Below, one piece after another: positions 15,508 through 26,162 of a DNA stretch of 64,000 bases. Within the stretch, counting starts at the first letter, position 1; each line of letters starts with the position of its first letter. Location of the stretch: assembly GCA_028286365.1 (NCBI GenBank), contig JAQBRR010000002.1:106165-170164 (forward strand). The letters run 5' to 3'. Both the position numbers and the translations under genes were made by a program. Source of the stretch: Candidatus Saccharimonadota bacterium (GTDB taxonomy: Bacteria > Patescibacteriota > Saccharimonadia > Saccharimonadales > Saccharimonadaceae). A model generated the notes under the pieces. The model worked only from the letters and a program-made list of their open reading frames with translations, searched no databases and was not told the origin of the DNA.

Positions 15508-15611
15508 CAGATACCGTCTCTCAAACATCCCCTTTCGCGCCTATCAGTGCACGATCAGCGATGCAAATTATGGGGCTGCAGTCGCTTTAGGATATTATCG
15601 AGAGGTATCTG
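15508..15611. ncRNA. Structured element A (homologous to element B)
   Basis: An outer stem pairs CAGATACC (15508-15515) with GGTATCTG (15604-15611) and continues as TCTC/GAGA. Inside lies a core (15531-15593) that aligns with 18215-18278 with one gap; the block 15565-15593 matches 18250-18278 at 27 of 29 positions and contains GGGCTGCAGTCGCTTTA. AGCGAT (15557-15562) can pair with GTCGCT (15581-15586), the same contact as in element B. It sits between the start of gltX and the end of the 15632 gene. Strand of the functional RNA is not known. Confidence 0.55.
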
Positions 15612-15631
15612 TTGCTTAATTTTGAGCTGGA

Positions 15632-16564
15632 TTACATGCTGGTTGCAATTTGTCGGATCTGATCACCAGAGAGTGGTGCATCACCATCGATTGTGTAAAG
15701 TATGCCACCATTTACCCAAGCCGCGTCGCCACTGTAGGTATAGATAGTTAAGCCTTGTTCTTGGTTGGTGATGTACTGCTCGCCTGCCTTAGGGAGAACA
15801 ATATCATTAAGGACTGCGGTTGAGTCCCATGTACTTTTTGCTTGCTTGATTGAGAACTTACTGGTGCCAGTGTTGGCGACGAAATTAATTGTCACTTGTC
15901 CGTTACTAAAAGTGACTGGACCATTGAGGCTATAGCCGTCAGGCTGATATTGAGGATAGGTTGCGTTAATACCTGCCTGTGCTGCAGCAACGCGAACGGA
16001 TAGTCCGGGCATATTAACGTATGTAAGATAGCCACCAACGAGTGCGACAACAATACAAACGACAATAATGGTGATTGCTCGTGGATGTCGGTTAAAGAAA
16101 TGCTTACGAGCTATCTTGACGGGTGGCTTGGCCAGAGCTGCCGTGATCGCATCGTTCTTGATATCCTGAGACGATTTGCTGGGTGCTGGGGCTACGACTG
16201 CACTACGCTTGGCTTGAAGCTTGTTAGTCTTTGACAGTAAGGGGTGTGATGCAACAACAGGCAGATCACGTGATGTGACAGCTGCGGGGGCAGTTACGAC
16301 GGGATGCGGGGCAAATCGGGCAACTTTACTGCTTCGGGCAATGTCCATAGTCTGTCCTGCATGTTTAGGGCGATGATTAGAAATTGGTGACGGCTTTTTG
16401 GTAACACGACGGATTAACGTCTTGGACCTTTGCAGCGAATTATGAATTGAACCAGCAGGAGTTGGCTTTTTTGAATGAGTATCAGTAGGTACTCCCGCAA
16501 TCGGAAGTCCTGTTAGGGAGTCATATTGTTGACCATTAATGGTAACAATACTGTCTTTACTCAT
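15632..16564 (-). CDS. Membrane-anchored protein with DUF4367-like outer domain
   Basis: 310 aa. Residues 1-150 are a basic, Pro/Ser/Ala-rich cytoplasmic region that starts IVTINGQQYDSLTGLPI; one membrane helix follows (about 160-180); the outer domain YQPDGYSLNGPVTFSNGQVTINF...GLTIYTYSGDAAWVNGGILYTI...LSGDQIRQIATSM resembles DUF4367 of anti-sigma-factor-like proteins. Exact role unknown; possible envelope sensor. A GAGG ribosome site lies 11 nt before the ATG. Confidence 0.7.
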   Translation of the reverse strand: MSKDSIVTINGQQYDSLTGLPIAGVPTDTHSKKPTPAGSIHNSLQRSKTLIRRVTKKPSPISNHRPKHAGQTMDIARSSKVARFAPHPVVTAPAAVTSRDLPVVASHPLLSKTNKLQAKRSAVVAPAPSKSSQDIKNDAITAALAKPPVKIARKHFFNRHPRAITIIVVCIVVALVGGYLTYVNMPGLSVRVAAAQAGINATYPQYQPDGYSLNGPVTFSNGQVTINFVANTGTSKFSIKQAKSTWDSTAVLNDIVLPKAGEQYITNQEQGLTIYTYSGDAAWVNGGILYTIDGDAPLSGDQIRQIATSM

Positions 16565-16694
16565 ATACTATGTCCTCGCAATTTGTACGTTATGTTTGTT
16601 ACGTCGATACGTAGCTATAACACTATAGTATAAAGCTTACGTCTAAGTTGCAAGGATTTGTTAAAAAATGTACTCAGTTCCCAGCAGGCGGCTG

Positions 16695-16700
16695 TATAAT
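16695..16700 (+). promoter_or_regulatory. -10 box of the PEGA gene
   Basis: TATAAT, 10 nt before the ATG at 16711; it makes the in-frame ATG at 16648 unlikely as the start. Confidence 0.6.
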
Positions 16701-16710
16701 ATGTAGTACG

Positions 16711-18174
16711 ATGTATCGTCGACCTTCAAAGAAAAAAGAAATAGTAATGCGCGTTATTACCTACACAGCGATGGTTTTGTCGGTTCTGACAATTGTATCC
16801 GTTCTTATTTTTTTGATTCTTGGATACAGAGTTGACACTAATAATGGCAAGATTGAACAAAGTGCACTACTGCAATATGATACAAACCCATCTGGTGCGA
16901 CTGTAACAGTTGACGGAAAGGCTCTCGGATCTAAGACGTCGACCAAGAGTACGGTCCTGGCTGGTGTGCATACCTTTACGATGCAAAAAGATGGCTACGA
17001 ACTGTGGCAAAAAACACTCGACGTAAAGGCAGGCACGCTGACGTGGCTAAATTATACACGACTTGTTCCTAAGAACCTGAAAGCTAAGTCAGTCGCTACT
17101 TACTCTAATATTTATGACAGTCTCGGCACAACCGATGGTAATACTATGATTGTGCAACAATCTGCGATGACACCGACATTTCAGATTGTTGACCTGCGTT
17201 CTGACACTATTAAGTCAACCAACTTTACGATTCCTGCAAACTTTTACAGTGAAGCAACGACACCAGGTATGGTCCACACATTTACACTAAACCAATGGGA
17301 CAGTGGTGGTCGTTACGTGTTAATTCAGCACACTTACGGAGACAAGAAAGAATGGCTTGTGGTTGATACCAAGGATCCAAATGCCACCAAGAATATTACA
17401 ACTCTATTTGATTTAGACCTTACTCAGCTAGTATTTTCTGGTACGAGCGGCAATATACTATATGCATTATCAGGGACTGACCTCAGGCAGCTTGATCTAT
17501 CGGCAGGCACAATATCACGTGCGCTTGTCAGCAACGTTAGCAACTTCTCTCTCTATCAGACGAATGTTATTACCTATGTAGGAACAGATCCAAATGATGC
17601 CAAGAAAACTGTTGTGGGGCTGTACCGCGAGGGTGACAATGCTCCACATGTGTTACGTAGTGTTGTGACGACAGGCGAACCTATACATATTGCTACATCA
17701 CACTACTTTAATAAGGATTACGTTGCTATTTCTCAGGGTAAACAAGTTGATATTACGAGTGGTAGTTATCCTTCATCAAGTAGCGATAGTAGTAGCCTGA
17801 GTGCCTTTGCGACATTCACCTTTTCTACGAATGTTGACAGTATGTCGTTTAGCCCTAAGGGCGATTACCTACTTGTTCAGTCAGGTGCGGACTTTGAGAG
17901 CTATGATATTGAGCATCAGCGCATTACCGACTACACATTAACAACCAGCACTAACGTTGCTGTTCCTCCTGTTAAGTGGCTAGATGATAATCACACATGG
18001 ACGGATTATAACGGCAGTATAGTGATGCGCGAATTTGATGGCGCGAATGCCTCGATACTTAATCCAGTAGCGACTGCTCAGGGTATCGCACTGACACAGA
18101 ATGACAAGTATATCTATAGTATCGGCAAGACTGCGACAGGCTATCAGCTACAACGCGTGCAAATGATACTTTAG
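16711..18174 (+). CDS. PEGA-domain membrane-anchored surface protein
   Basis: 487 aa from the ATG at 16711. Basic N-terminus MYRRPSKKK, one membrane helix, then a PEGA domain (about residues 50-115: YDTNPSGATVTVDGKALGSKT...AGVHTFTMQKDGYELWQKTLDVKAG), followed by about 370 residues that look like a beta-propeller (repeated SGNILYALSG..., FSPKGDYLLVQSG..., NDKYIYSIGK). PEGA domains are found in surface-layer and cell-wall proteins. Probably an exported protein facing the host or medium (inference). Confidence 0.8.
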   Translation: MYRRPSKKKEIVMRVITYTAMVLSVLTIVSVLIFLILGYRVDTNNGKIEQSALLQYDTNPSGATVTVDGKALGSKTSTKSTVLAGVHTFTMQKDGYELWQKTLDVKAGTLTWLNYTRLVPKNLKAKSVATYSNIYDSLGTTDGNTMIVQQSAMTPTFQIVDLRSDTIKSTNFTIPANFYSEATTPGMVHTFTLNQWDSGGRYVLIQHTYGDKKEWLVVDTKDPNATKNITTLFDLDLTQLVFSGTSGNILYALSGTDLRQLDLSAGTISRALVSNVSNFSLYQTNVITYVGTDPNDAKKTVVGLYREGDNAPHVLRSVVTTGEPIHIATSHYFNKDYVAISQGKQVDITSGSYPSSSSDSSSLSAFATFTFSTNVDSMSFSPKGDYLLVQSGADFESYDIEHQRITDYTLTTSTNVAVPPVKWLDDNHTWTDYNGSIVMREFDGANASILNPVATAQGIALTQNDKYIYSIGKTATGYQLQRVQMIL

Positions 18175-18184
18175 AAGAGTCCTC

Positions 18185-18304
18185 CTCCCTTCGCTCTTGT
18201 CCTCTCGAAGATCGCCTTTCACGCCTATAATTTCACGTTTTAGCGACGTAAATTATAGGGCTGCAGTCGCTTTATGATCTTCTCAAGAATAAGAACGAAG
18301 GGAG
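18185..18304. ncRNA. Structured element B (homologous to element A)
   Basis: Three nested helices: CTCCCTTCG (from 18185) with CGAAGGGAG (to 18304); GAAGATC (18207-18213) with GATCTTC (18276-18282); and CCTATAATTT (18224-18233) with AAATTATAGG (18250-18259), extended by ACGT/ACGT. The 7-nt loop TTTAGCG contains AGCG, which can pair with CGCT at 18268-18271, a possible pseudoknot. The core is nearly identical to element A. It fills the gap between two convergent genes and ends 3 bp from the sortase stop codon. It may be a bidirectional terminator, but the conserved single-stranded core argues for more. Confidence 0.6.
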
Positions 18305-18306
18305 AT

Positions 18307-19491
18307 TTAACCTCCGAAGAGTCGTTCGAAGAGTGTTGGTGAGCTGCCAGGGATCTCGGTTGTTGCCTGGTTGGTAGATGTCGTTGGGGCTGCAGTTGAG
18401 GCGGTAGGATCTGGACTGACTTGCTGTGCCGTTATGAGAAGTCTGTGAAGCGCTGTCCCGACTGGTGTACAAGTTAGTAGTGTCAAAACTGGCTGTGTCG
18501 TTTGGTATACTAAAGCGCTGACGTCAGTTGGCTCGACAACCTGTTTCTTGGTAACCGTATAGGTATAGCGGATACTCTGATAATTGACATAAATGCTATC
18601 GCCTACCTCGAGTTTATCGAGTTGTGCAAAGATAAATTTGTAATCACCGCCATCGAGAAGATCATTACTACTGTGTCCCGCTAAGACGGTGTTACCAACT
18701 TGACCTGGGTGGCTGCTGGCACCCGGAATTGCAAATTGTGCAACGCCCTTAGCCATCGCCGCCATCTGTGAATTATAGTCGTTCCCCACGTCGTACAGGA
18801 CTGGGACATCAACGTTAATCTTTGGAATGATGAGAAGTGGATCAGCAGGAACACTGACATTGCTTGATGGGTCAATAACGATGTTCTGAGGATCAATATT
18901 ACCAGGGCTGACGTAGGCCATAACCGTTCCAATGAGGAGCTGGTTATATTGTAAAAACGCAAAGATCAACACAACCAAAACGGCTGCGGTAATTGGTACG
19001 AAGTGACGACTTTTACGAACTTTTTTAGCTGATTCGGTGACACGTGATAATAGTTTCTGGCGGAGGTCAAACAATGCTTCATCCTGCGAAGTGCTCTCAA
19101 GTCGTTCTTGCTCTGCCTGATGTGTAAAGACTGCTTCACGGGTTGTTGGTACAGGGGTAGGCTGTGACTGGATAGTTTGCTTGGCCCGTTCAAGGTGGTG
19201 CGTGTAGTAGCCCTCATAATATTTCTGGTAGTAGGTTTGCCATGCGCTATGGTATTGTTTCCATTGTTCGAGTACTGGTTGCGGATTATCCTCATGTGTT
19301 CGTTCATATGGATTATCCTGCTGGGCTGGCTCAGCACTTGCTGGCTGATCGCTTGGATGGCTGTAGATGTTTTCGATTTGAGCGCGGACGATATTGGCCG
19401 CTGCGGCCTGGCTTGCTGGTACGTCACTAGGCGATTGCTGCGGCGCAGCAGGCGTATTTGCGGGGGTAGTTTGGTTCTCGTCGGGGCTCAT
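18307..19491 (-). CDS. Sortase (class D/E-like) with long N-terminal region
   Basis: 394 aa. Residues 1-165 are Gln/Pro/Ala-rich and probably cytoplasmic, then a membrane helix (about 167-190) and the sortase beta-barrel: catalytic His in LAGHSSN, Cys in LLTCTPVGT and Arg in HRLLITA. It cleaves a sorting motif and joins proteins to a cell-wall or pilin acceptor on the outer membrane face. No LPxTG-type substrate is visible in this window. The unusually long cytoplasmic extension is odd. TACAAT lies about 28 nt upstream and TAGGAA may serve as ribosome site. Confidence 0.88.
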   Translation of the reverse strand: MSPDENQTTPANTPAAPQQSPSDVPASQAAAANIVRAQIENIYSHPSDQPASAEPAQQDNPYERTHEDNPQPVLEQWKQYHSAWQTYYQKYYEGYYTHHLERAKQTIQSQPTPVPTTREAVFTHQAEQERLESTSQDEALFDLRQKLLSRVTESAKKVRKSRHFVPITAAVLVVLIFAFLQYNQLLIGTVMAYVSPGNIDPQNIVIDPSSNVSVPADPLLIIPKINVDVPVLYDVGNDYNSQMAAMAKGVAQFAIPGASSHPGQVGNTVLAGHSSNDLLDGGDYKFIFAQLDKLEVGDSIYVNYQSIRYTYTVTKKQVVEPTDVSALVYQTTQPVLTLLTCTPVGTALHRLLITAQQVSPDPTASTAAPTTSTNQATTEIPGSSPTLFERLFGG

Positions 19492-24101: not shown

Positions 24102-25265
24102 ATGAAAATCTTGATTGCTGCGGATCTCTACTTCCCTGTTATCAATGGCGTGGCGACATTTAGTCGTAATCTCGCTAAGGGCCTAGCCAATCGTGGTCAT
24201 GAAGTCCTTGTTATTGCACCGAGTCAAACGGGTCGACGCTACAAGGAAGTTGATGGTAATTATGTTGTAACTCGTACTATTTCGGTACCAATGCCTTTGT
24301 ATCAAAATATTAAAGTGTCACTGACCCCGATGCGTGAAGTGAAGAAAATTATTGATGAGTTTGATCCAGATGTTATCCATATCCAAATGCTTATGTGGAT
24401 TGGTCAAGCAACGATGAAATATGGTAATAAAGTCGGCATTCCGATTGTTAGCACTAACCACGCAATGCCAGAAAACTTGATGGATAACTTGAAGTTGCTT
24501 GCCCCAGTCGCGAGGCCGATTAACTACATGCTCCGTGACTATGGACGACGCTTTCATTCCAAGGCTGATTTCGTAACAATGCCAACGCAATCAGCAATTG
24601 GAATGTTCAGAGTTGCCGAGAAGATGAATGTGCCGATGAAAGCTGTCTCAAATGGTATTGATCTCAGTCGCTTTACAGACGAAAAAGCACCAGATAGTAT
24701 CTACGAGAAGTATAATCTTCCTACCGATATACCAATCGTTACTTATGTGGGGCGAACTGATGCTGAAAAGCATATCTGGGCACTCATTAAAGGTTTTGCA
24801 CGCGCTCTAAAAACAGTCAAAGCGCATCTGTTAATTGTTGGAGACGGCAGTGATGCGGATAATCTCAAAGCACTCGTAAAAGACCTTGGTATTAAAGATT
24901 CCGTGACGTTTGCTGGACGCGTACCTGAGGAAGATTTGGCACCGTTACACCAAGTTGGAAAAATATTTGCAATGCCTTCTCCTATGGAGCTACAAAGCAT
25001 CGCGACACTTGAAGCGATGGCTAGTGGCAAGCCAGTTGTTGCAATTGATGCGGGAGCACTGAAGGAACTTTGTCATGATCAAAAGAATGGCTTTTTGTGT
25101 GAACAAGATAATGACGAACAAATTGGTGATGCGATTGCTAAGATCCTCACTGACCCGGAACTGCAAAAGAAATTCTCAGCCGAGAGTCTTCGTATTGCTC
25201 GGGAAAACGATCTCGACTTTACACTTGATCAGTTCCTCAAGATTTACGCCGATCTTATACACTAA
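24102..25265 (+). CDS. GT4-family glycosyltransferase (diacylglycerol glycosyltransferase-like)
   Basis: 387 aa. The N-terminus MKILIAADLYFPVINGVATFSRNLAKGLANRGHEV, then DPDVIHIQ, and in the second half TYVGRTDAEKHIWALIKGFARA and MPSPMELQSIATLEAMASGKPVVAIDAG. This pattern (P.nGV..s....a..L..rGHeV) matches glycolipid-forming GT4 enzymes such as 1,2-diacylglycerol 3-glucosyltransferases and PimB-like mannosyltransferases. The donor motif ExxxxxxG has SIATLEAM. Lipid acceptor is inferred, not shown. Its stop codon lies at the edge of structured element C. Confidence 0.88.
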   Translation: MKILIAADLYFPVINGVATFSRNLAKGLANRGHEVLVIAPSQTGRRYKEVDGNYVVTRTISVPMPLYQNIKVSLTPMREVKKIIDEFDPDVIHIQMLMWIGQATMKYGNKVGIPIVSTNHAMPENLMDNLKLLAPVARPINYMLRDYGRRFHSKADFVTMPTQSAIGMFRVAEKMNVPMKAVSNGIDLSRFTDEKAPDSIYEKYNLPTDIPIVTYVGRTDAEKHIWALIKGFARALKTVKAHLLIVGDGSDADNLKALVKDLGIKDSVTFAGRVPEEDLAPLHQVGKIFAMPSPMELQSIATLEAMASGKPVVAIDAGALKELCHDQKNGFLCEQDNDEQIGDAIAKILTDPELQKKFSAESLRIARENDLDFTLDQFLKIYADLIH

Positions 25266-25375
25266 TCTGACTTTATAATCTTCCTTCAACCGACCACTTC
25301 CGCAGTGTTCACTAAAGTGTAACACTGCTCGCGTTACGCTTTTAGCCTGTTTCGTGAAGATTATAAACTCAGATT
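25264..25375. ncRNA. Structured element C, long palindrome between convergent genes
   Basis: Two 20-nt arms (25264-25283 and 25356-25375) are complementary at 19 of 20 positions. Inside, GCAGTGTT (25302-25309) pairs with AACACTGC (25321-25328), with CACT/AGTG in the loop. Behind the inner hairpin comes CGCTTTTAG, similar to CGCTTTA(G/T)G at the same place in elements A and B, but the rest of the sequence is not alike. The arms reach from the GT4 stop codon to one base before the hydrolase stop codon. Either a bidirectional terminator or a distant relative of A and B. Confidence 0.5.
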
Positions 25376-25376
25376 G

Positions 25377-26162
25377 CTATTTACGATTAGTAAAATTCTT
25401 AATTGCATCTGCTACTTGGTCTGGTGTTTCGTAGTGAGTTAAATGCCCTACTTTTTTGATCACATGCAACTTGCCGTCAGAAAACATTTCAACAAGCTCT
25501 TTTTGTTTGTGAAGCGGTGTGATGTCATCATTGGCCCCGACAATTAGGAGGGTTGGAACGCTAATATCGCCAGCCGTCTCACGAACGTTGTGGCTAACAG
25601 ATGTGGTAAATGACTCTGAAAGTGATTTCTTGTCATGGAAGAGGCTAAAATAACGGAAATGTTGGTTATGAATATACGCGCGTACTGCCTTGTCTTTGGT
25701 TTTGGTCATTGAGAGCGTGACGATAACAACGACTGGCTTAGCGGCGAGCCATTTATTGGCAATACGAGTCGGGAGTTTGCGTCCGACCCAGTAATAGAAT
25801 AATGCTAGTTGCGTGAGCACAGCACGTGGTCCCTCAAGTGCCGGTGCACCAATGGGATTGACGAGGATCAACTTTTCAATTGTCTTCGGGTATTTGGCGG
25901 CATAGGCAGCGGTTATGATACTGCCGAATGAATGCCCCAATAGGATAGGTGGTTTTTTTAGATTCTGGCGTTCTATAAGGTTATGTAACCACAAGACATA
26001 GGCATCCAGATCATAGGATGGAAGTGACTCGCCTTCCGCAAAACCCGGAAGATCAGGAATCGTCAGGTTGTATTCAGGTAATTGCTCCGCTATAAGTTGC
26101 AGTCCGTGATGTGTTCCACGAAAGCCGTGGATCATGATGATAGTTTTTTTTGTCGCCGTCAT
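25377..26162 (-). CDS. Alpha/beta-hydrolase
   Basis: 261 aa. MIHGFRGTHHGLQLIAEQL (oxyanion loop HG), nucleophile Ser in LGHSFGS, acid Asp in VGANDDITPL and His in KKVGHLTHYE give the complete Ser-Asp-His triad of the fold. Substrate unknown; esterase, lipase or haloperoxidase-like enzymes share this pattern. TATACT 8 nt before the ATG, no Shine-Dalgarno. Confidence 0.85.
   Translation of the reverse strand: MTATKKTIIMIHGFRGTHHGLQLIAEQLPEYNLTIPDLPGFAEGESLPSYDLDAYVLWLHNLIERQNLKKPPILLGHSFGSIITAAYAAKYPKTIEKLILVNPIGAPALEGPRAVLTQLALFYYWVGRKLPTRIANKWLAAKPVVVIVTLSMTKTKDKAVRAYIHNQHFRYFSLFHDKKSLSESFTTSVSHNVRETAGDISVPTLLIVGANDDITPLHKQKELVEMFSDGKLHVIKKVGHLTHYETPDQVADAIKNFTNRK

Follow-up and report, generated by a model that had tools for sequence, protein, structure and literature searches.

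Two related palindromes in the window

The stretch of Saccharimonadales DNA analyzed here (the window, 64,000 nucleotides) contains two palindromic sequences, A and B, whose outer stems differ and which share a short block of almost identical sequence. We wanted to know whether these are copies of a structured noncoding RNA, terminators that look alike by chance, or copies of a mobile element. The initial annotation had noted that positions 15565-15593 and 18250-18278 are the same at 27 out of 29 positions, and direct comparison confirmed this. The different outer stems that it had described as closing the two copies are also present in the sequence (CAGATACC/GGTATCTG for A and CTCCCTTCG/CGAAGGGAG for B). 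The window has just two exact copies of the 13-mer GGGCTGCAGTCGC, and five matches are found when up to two mismatches are allowed, versus 0.82 expected. Copy B constitutes the second-longest inverted repeat of the window (I2). The features of both copies are given in Table 1.

Copy A is located between the stop codon of the gene at 15632-16564 and the start of gltX, with both genes on the minus strand. Copy B is located between two convergent genes: the plus-strand gene ends at position 18174, with B 11 nt past its stop codon, and the minus-strand gene ends at position 18307, 3 nt from B. Both copies lie close behind stop codons, where insertions would be tolerated. When compared with 200 dinucleotide shuffles, the fold of A has a z-score of -5.3 on the minus strand and -1.9 on the plus strand, and that of B has z-scores of -7.7 and -6.1, respectively. 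Neither A nor B is followed by a clear T-run in the sequence.

The longest imperfect inverted repeat of the window is located elsewhere, at positions 25239-25400. It has 45-nt arms that are 73% complementary and 72 nt apart, and it was not matched by the model of the element described below.

Table 1. Positions of the palindromic copies A and B, their parts, and the class 2 palindromes. Positions of A and B are those of the window.
Feature	Position	Strand	Basis
Copy A, whole palindrome	15508..15611	minus (probable folding strand)	sequence; model match 85.3 bits, E 5e-20; fold z -5.3 on minus strand
A, P1 left side (ACATCC on plus strand); partner 15590-15595 (GGATAT)	15525..15530	minus	consensus structure and covariation
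A, conserved internal loop, first side (CCTTTCGCG on plus strand)	15531..15539	minus	conservation in alignment
A, inner hairpin P2, variable sequence, closed by CC..GG	15540..15574	minus	P2 pairs covary among copies
A, conserved internal loop, second side (GCTGCAGTCGCTTTA on plus strand)	15575..15589	minus	alignment conservation; exact match to B
A, P1 right side (GGATAT)	15590..15595	minus	consensus structure and covariation
Copy B, whole palindrome	18185..18304	minus (probable folding strand)	sequence; model match 89.3 bits, E 4e-21; inverted repeat I2; fold z -7.7 on minus strand
B, outermost stem, left (CTCCCTTCG); partner 18296-18304 (CGAAGGGAG)	18185..18193	minus	sequence; inverted repeat I2
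B, P1 left side (AAGATC); partner 18276-18281 (GATCTT)	18208..18213	minus	consensus structure and covariation
B, conserved internal loop, first side (GCCTTTCACG)	18214..18223	minus	alignment
B, inner hairpin P2	18224..18259	minus	fold and covariation
B, conserved internal loop, second side (GCTGCAGTCGCTTTA)	18260..18274	minus	alignment; exact match to A
Class 2 copies	L157 C2:97965, L158 C2:63447, L159 C1:19490 (all G000); L160 (G006)

A conserved core within covarying stems

The element to which A and B belong is about 100-130 bp long. Two complementary outer arms enclose a short stem (P1), which is followed inward by an asymmetric internal loop of conserved sequence (the core) and by an inner hairpin (P2) that varies. 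On the plus strand, the order is outer arm, P1, a sequence close to CCYTWCRCG, P2 (closed by CC..GG and variable in length and sequence), GCTGCAGTCGCTTTA or a subtype of it, the second side of P1, and the other outer arm. Read on the minus strand, the core is TAAAGCGACTGCAGCC-[P2]-GGCGYGWARGG.

The arms and P2 vary in sequence among copies, and their pairing is kept. In an alignment of 96 distinct copies, which was fitted to the model and therefore favours the paired structure somewhat, 94.1% of the cells are paired versus 62.7% in shuffles, and 504 cells show double, compensatory changes versus 152 in shuffles. Pairing in these copies drops to 32-53% when the structure is slid by one to three columns. 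Double changes were found in the arms too among the copies of one genome, G836, in which the element has undergone a burst. The strong covariation thus bears out the view, put forward when the two copies were first noticed, that a conserved core with changing stems reflects a selected structure. The unpaired core is conserved across 26 genera and the ends are not; a structured core that is conserved across an order while the ends change is an unusual trait. A proposed pseudoknot between AGCGA and TCGCT did not turn out to be a feature of the family: the two segments can pair in A and B, whereas just 13 of the 94 copies that were parsed would allow it.

Two genomes carry a copy near what appears to be the same upstream gene (L053 in G152 and L056 in G121). 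The core and P1 of these copies are identical, and their outer arms are wholly different yet well paired.

Distribution of the element

An exact 17-mer search of the GTDB genomes yielded 17 stretches, of which those from Saccharibacteria share the anatomy described above and the others lack it. A first covariance model was built from an alignment of 14 copies, and a second one from 44 copies. Covariance model searches detected the element in 7 of 28 genomes of the genus to which the window belongs, in 34 of 394 genomes of its family, and in 37 of 393 genomes (26 of 156 genera) of the order Saccharimonadales. In a phylum-wide sample of 380 genomes, the first model matched three members of the family, one of them being the genome of the window, and gave no match outside this family. 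Further copies in related genomes, one of the outcomes by which the first reading of the locus could be judged, were hence found. The distribution is patchy even within one genus, and the number of copies per genome ranges from 0 to more than 26. At the thresholds used, A and B are the sole copies in the 850 kb of the genome of the window (G000).

Searches for known families gave the following results. At the gathering score, Rfam contained nothing matching A, B or other copies, either a terminator or any other family, in agreement with the initial annotation, which knew of no family with this core; the matches obtained were far below threshold and concerned plant miRNAs. No model of the known self-cleaving ribozymes matched, and we rejected this identity. 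A link with phages was also rejected on the basis of the two exact core matches in viral contigs, both of which lack the first half of the core; a pattern search gave ten further matches.

These data bear on the possibility that A and B resemble each other by chance, or are two unrelated intrinsic terminators. In its favour are the position of both copies behind stop codons and, judged by eye, the terminator-like stems in which some copies are found elsewhere (in G079 and at L054). However, E-values of the model go down to 1e-24 in other genomes while a reversed control pattern gave almost no matches, and the lack of a clear T-run and the conservation of the unpaired core in 26 genera also argue against it. 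Together with the covariation, the E-values and the 26-genus spread refute this explanation, to which we assign a negligible likelihood.

Two arrangements of copies deserve mention. In G830, two identical copies are present in tandem, about 100 bp apart (L176:1501-1670). In G079, the sequence around each of four near-identical copies (L194-L197) is itself a palindrome and varies between the sites, as though terminator hairpins had served as landing places.

Evidence for mobility

The clearest signs of mobility come from G836, a genome that is 84% complete and of which 938 kb were examined. BLAST searches gave dozens of matches, and at least 26 full copies are present. These are about 120 bp long and have the terminal inverted repeats CTGACCC..GGGTCAG. 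A target-site duplication of 9 bp, sometimes 10 bp, is recognizable at 24 of 27 copies. The identity between the flanks is 0.61 at offset 9, versus 0.25 for swapped flanks, and the other offsets give values near background, apart from 0.37 at offset 10 and a slight increase to 0.32 at offset 7. The observed duplication sum was reached in none of 20,000 permutations, and a separate test on 82 copies of all genomes gave 0 of 5000. Target-site duplications and exact ends are no longer readable at A and B, nor in most of the other genomes.

Comparison of related genomes points in the same direction. An intergenic site of G006 contains two palindromes, and the same site is about 30 bp long in its close relative G000 (filled versus empty). 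Copy A has an ortholog at the same gltX site in G006; the element has the orientation seen in the window in G000 and G006 and is flipped in G016 and G027, and no copy was seen in the other 23 genomes in which the site was found. At the place corresponding to B, G006 has a copy (L039/L015) whose arms are quite different from those of B.

The palindromes found upstream of gltX differ among genomes of the genus (L112 in G001 and L116 in G007), and this intergenic region looks like a hot spot for landing.

We conclude, with a probability of about 0.82, that a mobile palindromic element of the order Saccharimonadales, MITE-like and non-autonomous, has left two old copies in the window, A and B, and that it is moved in trans by a putative transposase. 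The 9-bp duplication and the inverted ends point to a transposase that makes staggered cuts and acts in trans. Of the two options offered by the initial annotation, a new ncRNA or a mobile palindromic element of the lineage, the second is hence the one we retain. A transposase supplied in trans would recognize the terminal arms, make a 9-bp staggered cut and then insert the element. The spacing of inverted end pairs in G836 is 100-157 bp throughout, and a search for end pairs up to 4 kb apart revealed none more than 157 bp apart that could represent an autonomous copy in the 938 kb examined. This counts against our conclusion, although a parent element could be missed in a genome that is 84% complete.

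G836 contains a further, unrelated palindrome, about 156 bp long, that has a different core and the same ends (L366:6409-6564, L360:11429-11585, L381 from 9727 and L329 near 5624). It had no match in Rfam. One of its copies is flanked on both sides by GGGTTTACC, a 9-bp duplication. Because this palindrome shares the ends and the duplication in spite of its other core, the ends are probably what the transposase reads in G836.

Copies within genes

That nothing around the conserved block is coding, as was noted for A and B, holds for these two copies and not for others, which are located in frame within genes. Intact open reading frames with an in-frame copy encode RNase HII-UPF0102, exonuclease I, ValS, TsaD, a TlyA-like methyltransferase and GyrA. 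Copies in exonuclease I were found in five related genomes, and copies in ValS and in TsaD in two genomes each. Relative to the solved TsaD structure 3zet, the TsaD of the host is longer by about 47 residues at the insertion point. The insert in exonuclease I is less clean, with about 11 net extra residues.

Near residue 75, the ValS of G658 (L170) appears to have another unusual insert (SEDSRLAPSRPSLRGSVAQSAPLRSRTVSNPLIPDSS); the model matches weakly at L170:2771-2833.

A mobile element is not the sole reading of a conserved fold. The copies could instead be a structured ncRNA or a cis-regulator that benefits the host at several loci, such as a riboswitch, an attenuator, a bidirectional terminator or an mRNA stabilizer. 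Strong covariation and the order-wide conservation of the core would be expected of such an RNA; moreover, copies are often found just behind stop codons (median distance 12 nt), and the copy at the B site is kept in both G000 and G006 despite its changed arms. The target-site duplications, the insertions within open reading frames and the presence of both orientations at one site are difficult to reconcile with it, as are the patchiness within a genus and the variable copy number, and the neighbours, as far as examined, have no gene class in common. The strand bias described in the next section is, in addition, independent of host transcription. We consider a host-beneficial RNA improbable.

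The probable folding strand

The arms of the palindromes are not perfectly complementary, and their mismatches are unevenly distributed. Read on the plus strand, A.C mismatches outnumber G.T (64 versus 17), and C.T mismatches outnumber G.A (33 versus 9). In this count, single mismatches within the arms were scored with no type being favoured; it replaces a looser one that included poorly paired flanks (A.C 52 versus G.T 26). On the minus strand, A.C corresponds to G.U and C.T to G.A, both of which are more stable. The bias has this direction in 44 copies and the opposite one in six (p = 3e-8), and it was found again within the G836 burst (35 versus 10). It has the same sign for copies with flanking genes in the orientations ++, --, +- and -+, and for copies within open reading frames.

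It is therefore most probably the minus strand that folds, and not the strand that had originally been folded. Strand-biased mutation could in principle also generate such a bias. A host-level RNA function is disfavoured because the bias ignores the direction of host transcription, which it would be expected to follow. The element itself probably passes through a folded single-stranded minus-strand form, either RNA or DNA. Folding of this form would probably belong to the life cycle of the element itself, and its conserved core would probably be recognized by a protein.

One way to obtain such a form is retroposition, in which a reverse transcriptase would turn an RNA hairpin back into DNA. 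The RNA-like covariation and the strand bias fit with this, as does the tendency of partial copies in G836 to retain one particular end: a narrower search found six internal partial copies, all with the right end kept, and a fuller search found seven right-only copies and one left-only copy. However, an RNA of the minus strand should have left the opposite end, and one truncated copy departs from the rest in the end that it keeps; moreover, by eye, the truncated copies have no clear duplications, and the length of the duplication is near-fixed at 9 bp. The RNA route is further disfavoured because a reverse transcriptase gene (RVT_1, PF00078) is absent from G836 (84% complete), G097 and G000. 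We therefore regard retroposition as very unlikely, and favour the element moved by a transposase. Reverse transcriptase genes (PF00078) are present in the element-bearing genomes G079 (L293) and G006 (L294), and absent from the other twelve genomes searched.

A more specific scenario, which is possible though doubtful, is that of a selfish element whose strand-specific folded core, and not its ends alone, would be read as RNA or single-stranded DNA by the mobility machinery, with the outer arms being exchanged to suit the transposase of the host. If true, this would be a structure-guided mobile hairpin of a kind that has not been described.

Relation to known mobile palindromes

The closest known systems are the Rickettsia palindromic elements (RPE; Ogata et al.) and the protein-coding palindromes of Wolbachia, which are about 105-150 bp long, form a long stem-loop, fall into several families per lineage, and are present in intergenic regions as well as in frame within conserved genes of parasitic bacteria with small genomes (PMC2229807, PMC10969869). 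The Saccharimonadales element resembles them in its size, long stem-loop, occurrence in families, in-frame insertions into conserved genes and small-genome parasitic hosts. Unlike the RPE, whose hosts are Rickettsiales, it is present in an unrelated phylum, and the likeness considered here is one of features. Features shown for it, relative to the RPE, are the 9-bp duplication, the order-wide conserved unpaired core and the strand-biased stem. We therefore do not class the element as an RPE; the likeness appears to lie in the way of working.

Like the bacterial MITEs NEMIS/Correia, RUP and ERIC, the element is short, has terminal inverted repeats and a target-site duplication, lacks a transposase gene, and is tolerated between and within genes. 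It differs from them in that no parent transposon was found (in one genome, G836) and in that the core is kept across genera while the terminal repeats change. The latter is the reverse of an ordinary MITE and counts against our preferred explanation. The 9-bp duplication also contrasts with the short (TA-type) ones listed for several MITE families (PMC2229807, PMC10969869). YPAL/RU-2 of Yersinia is likewise palindromic and mobile, with duplications of 3 to 26 bp, internal inverted repeats and targets that adjoin dyad symmetry (PMC2229807). The Saccharimonadales element shares with it the palindromic nature, mobility, duplications and, for some copies (e.g. those of G079), palindromic surroundings, but its duplications are 9-10 bp and its inverted repeats are terminal.

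The CTGA-type ends and the 9-bp duplication of the G836 copies, for which no longer copy was found, offer another comparison. The IS4-family transposons IS10 and IS50 have CTGA-type ends and generate 9-bp duplications. A link with this family is no more than a lead.

REP/RAYT elements and integron attC sites are hairpins that are read on one strand, and attC sites keep their structure while their sequence varies. The element resembles both in having a hairpin with one reading strand, and attC in keeping structure while sequence varies. However, these systems are not known to make a 9-bp target-site duplication, and we noticed none of the sequence boxes of REP/RAYT or attC in the element.

We found no earlier account of similar elements, either for Saccharibacteria or for the Candidate Phyla Radiation, in the literature searched, outside of which most subscription journals lie. 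Saccharibacteria and other Patescibacteria have tiny genomes. The element family described here combines recent bursts with empty sites, duplications of 9 bp and insertion in frame into genes such as valS, gyrA and tsaD. A palindrome behaviour known from Rickettsia and Wolbachia is now found in an unrelated parasitic phylum, and an order-wide core with a measurable folding strand makes the mobility of protein-coding palindromes directly testable.

The genome of the window also contains, outside the window, at least three dispersed copies of a different palindrome family of about 90 bp, CGGGTGGCGTTCGGTGGGGCAGCACCC[P2]GGGGCAAACCGGACG..GGACCCG, which we named class 2 (Table 1). A palindrome similar to class 2 is present at the gltX site of G002.
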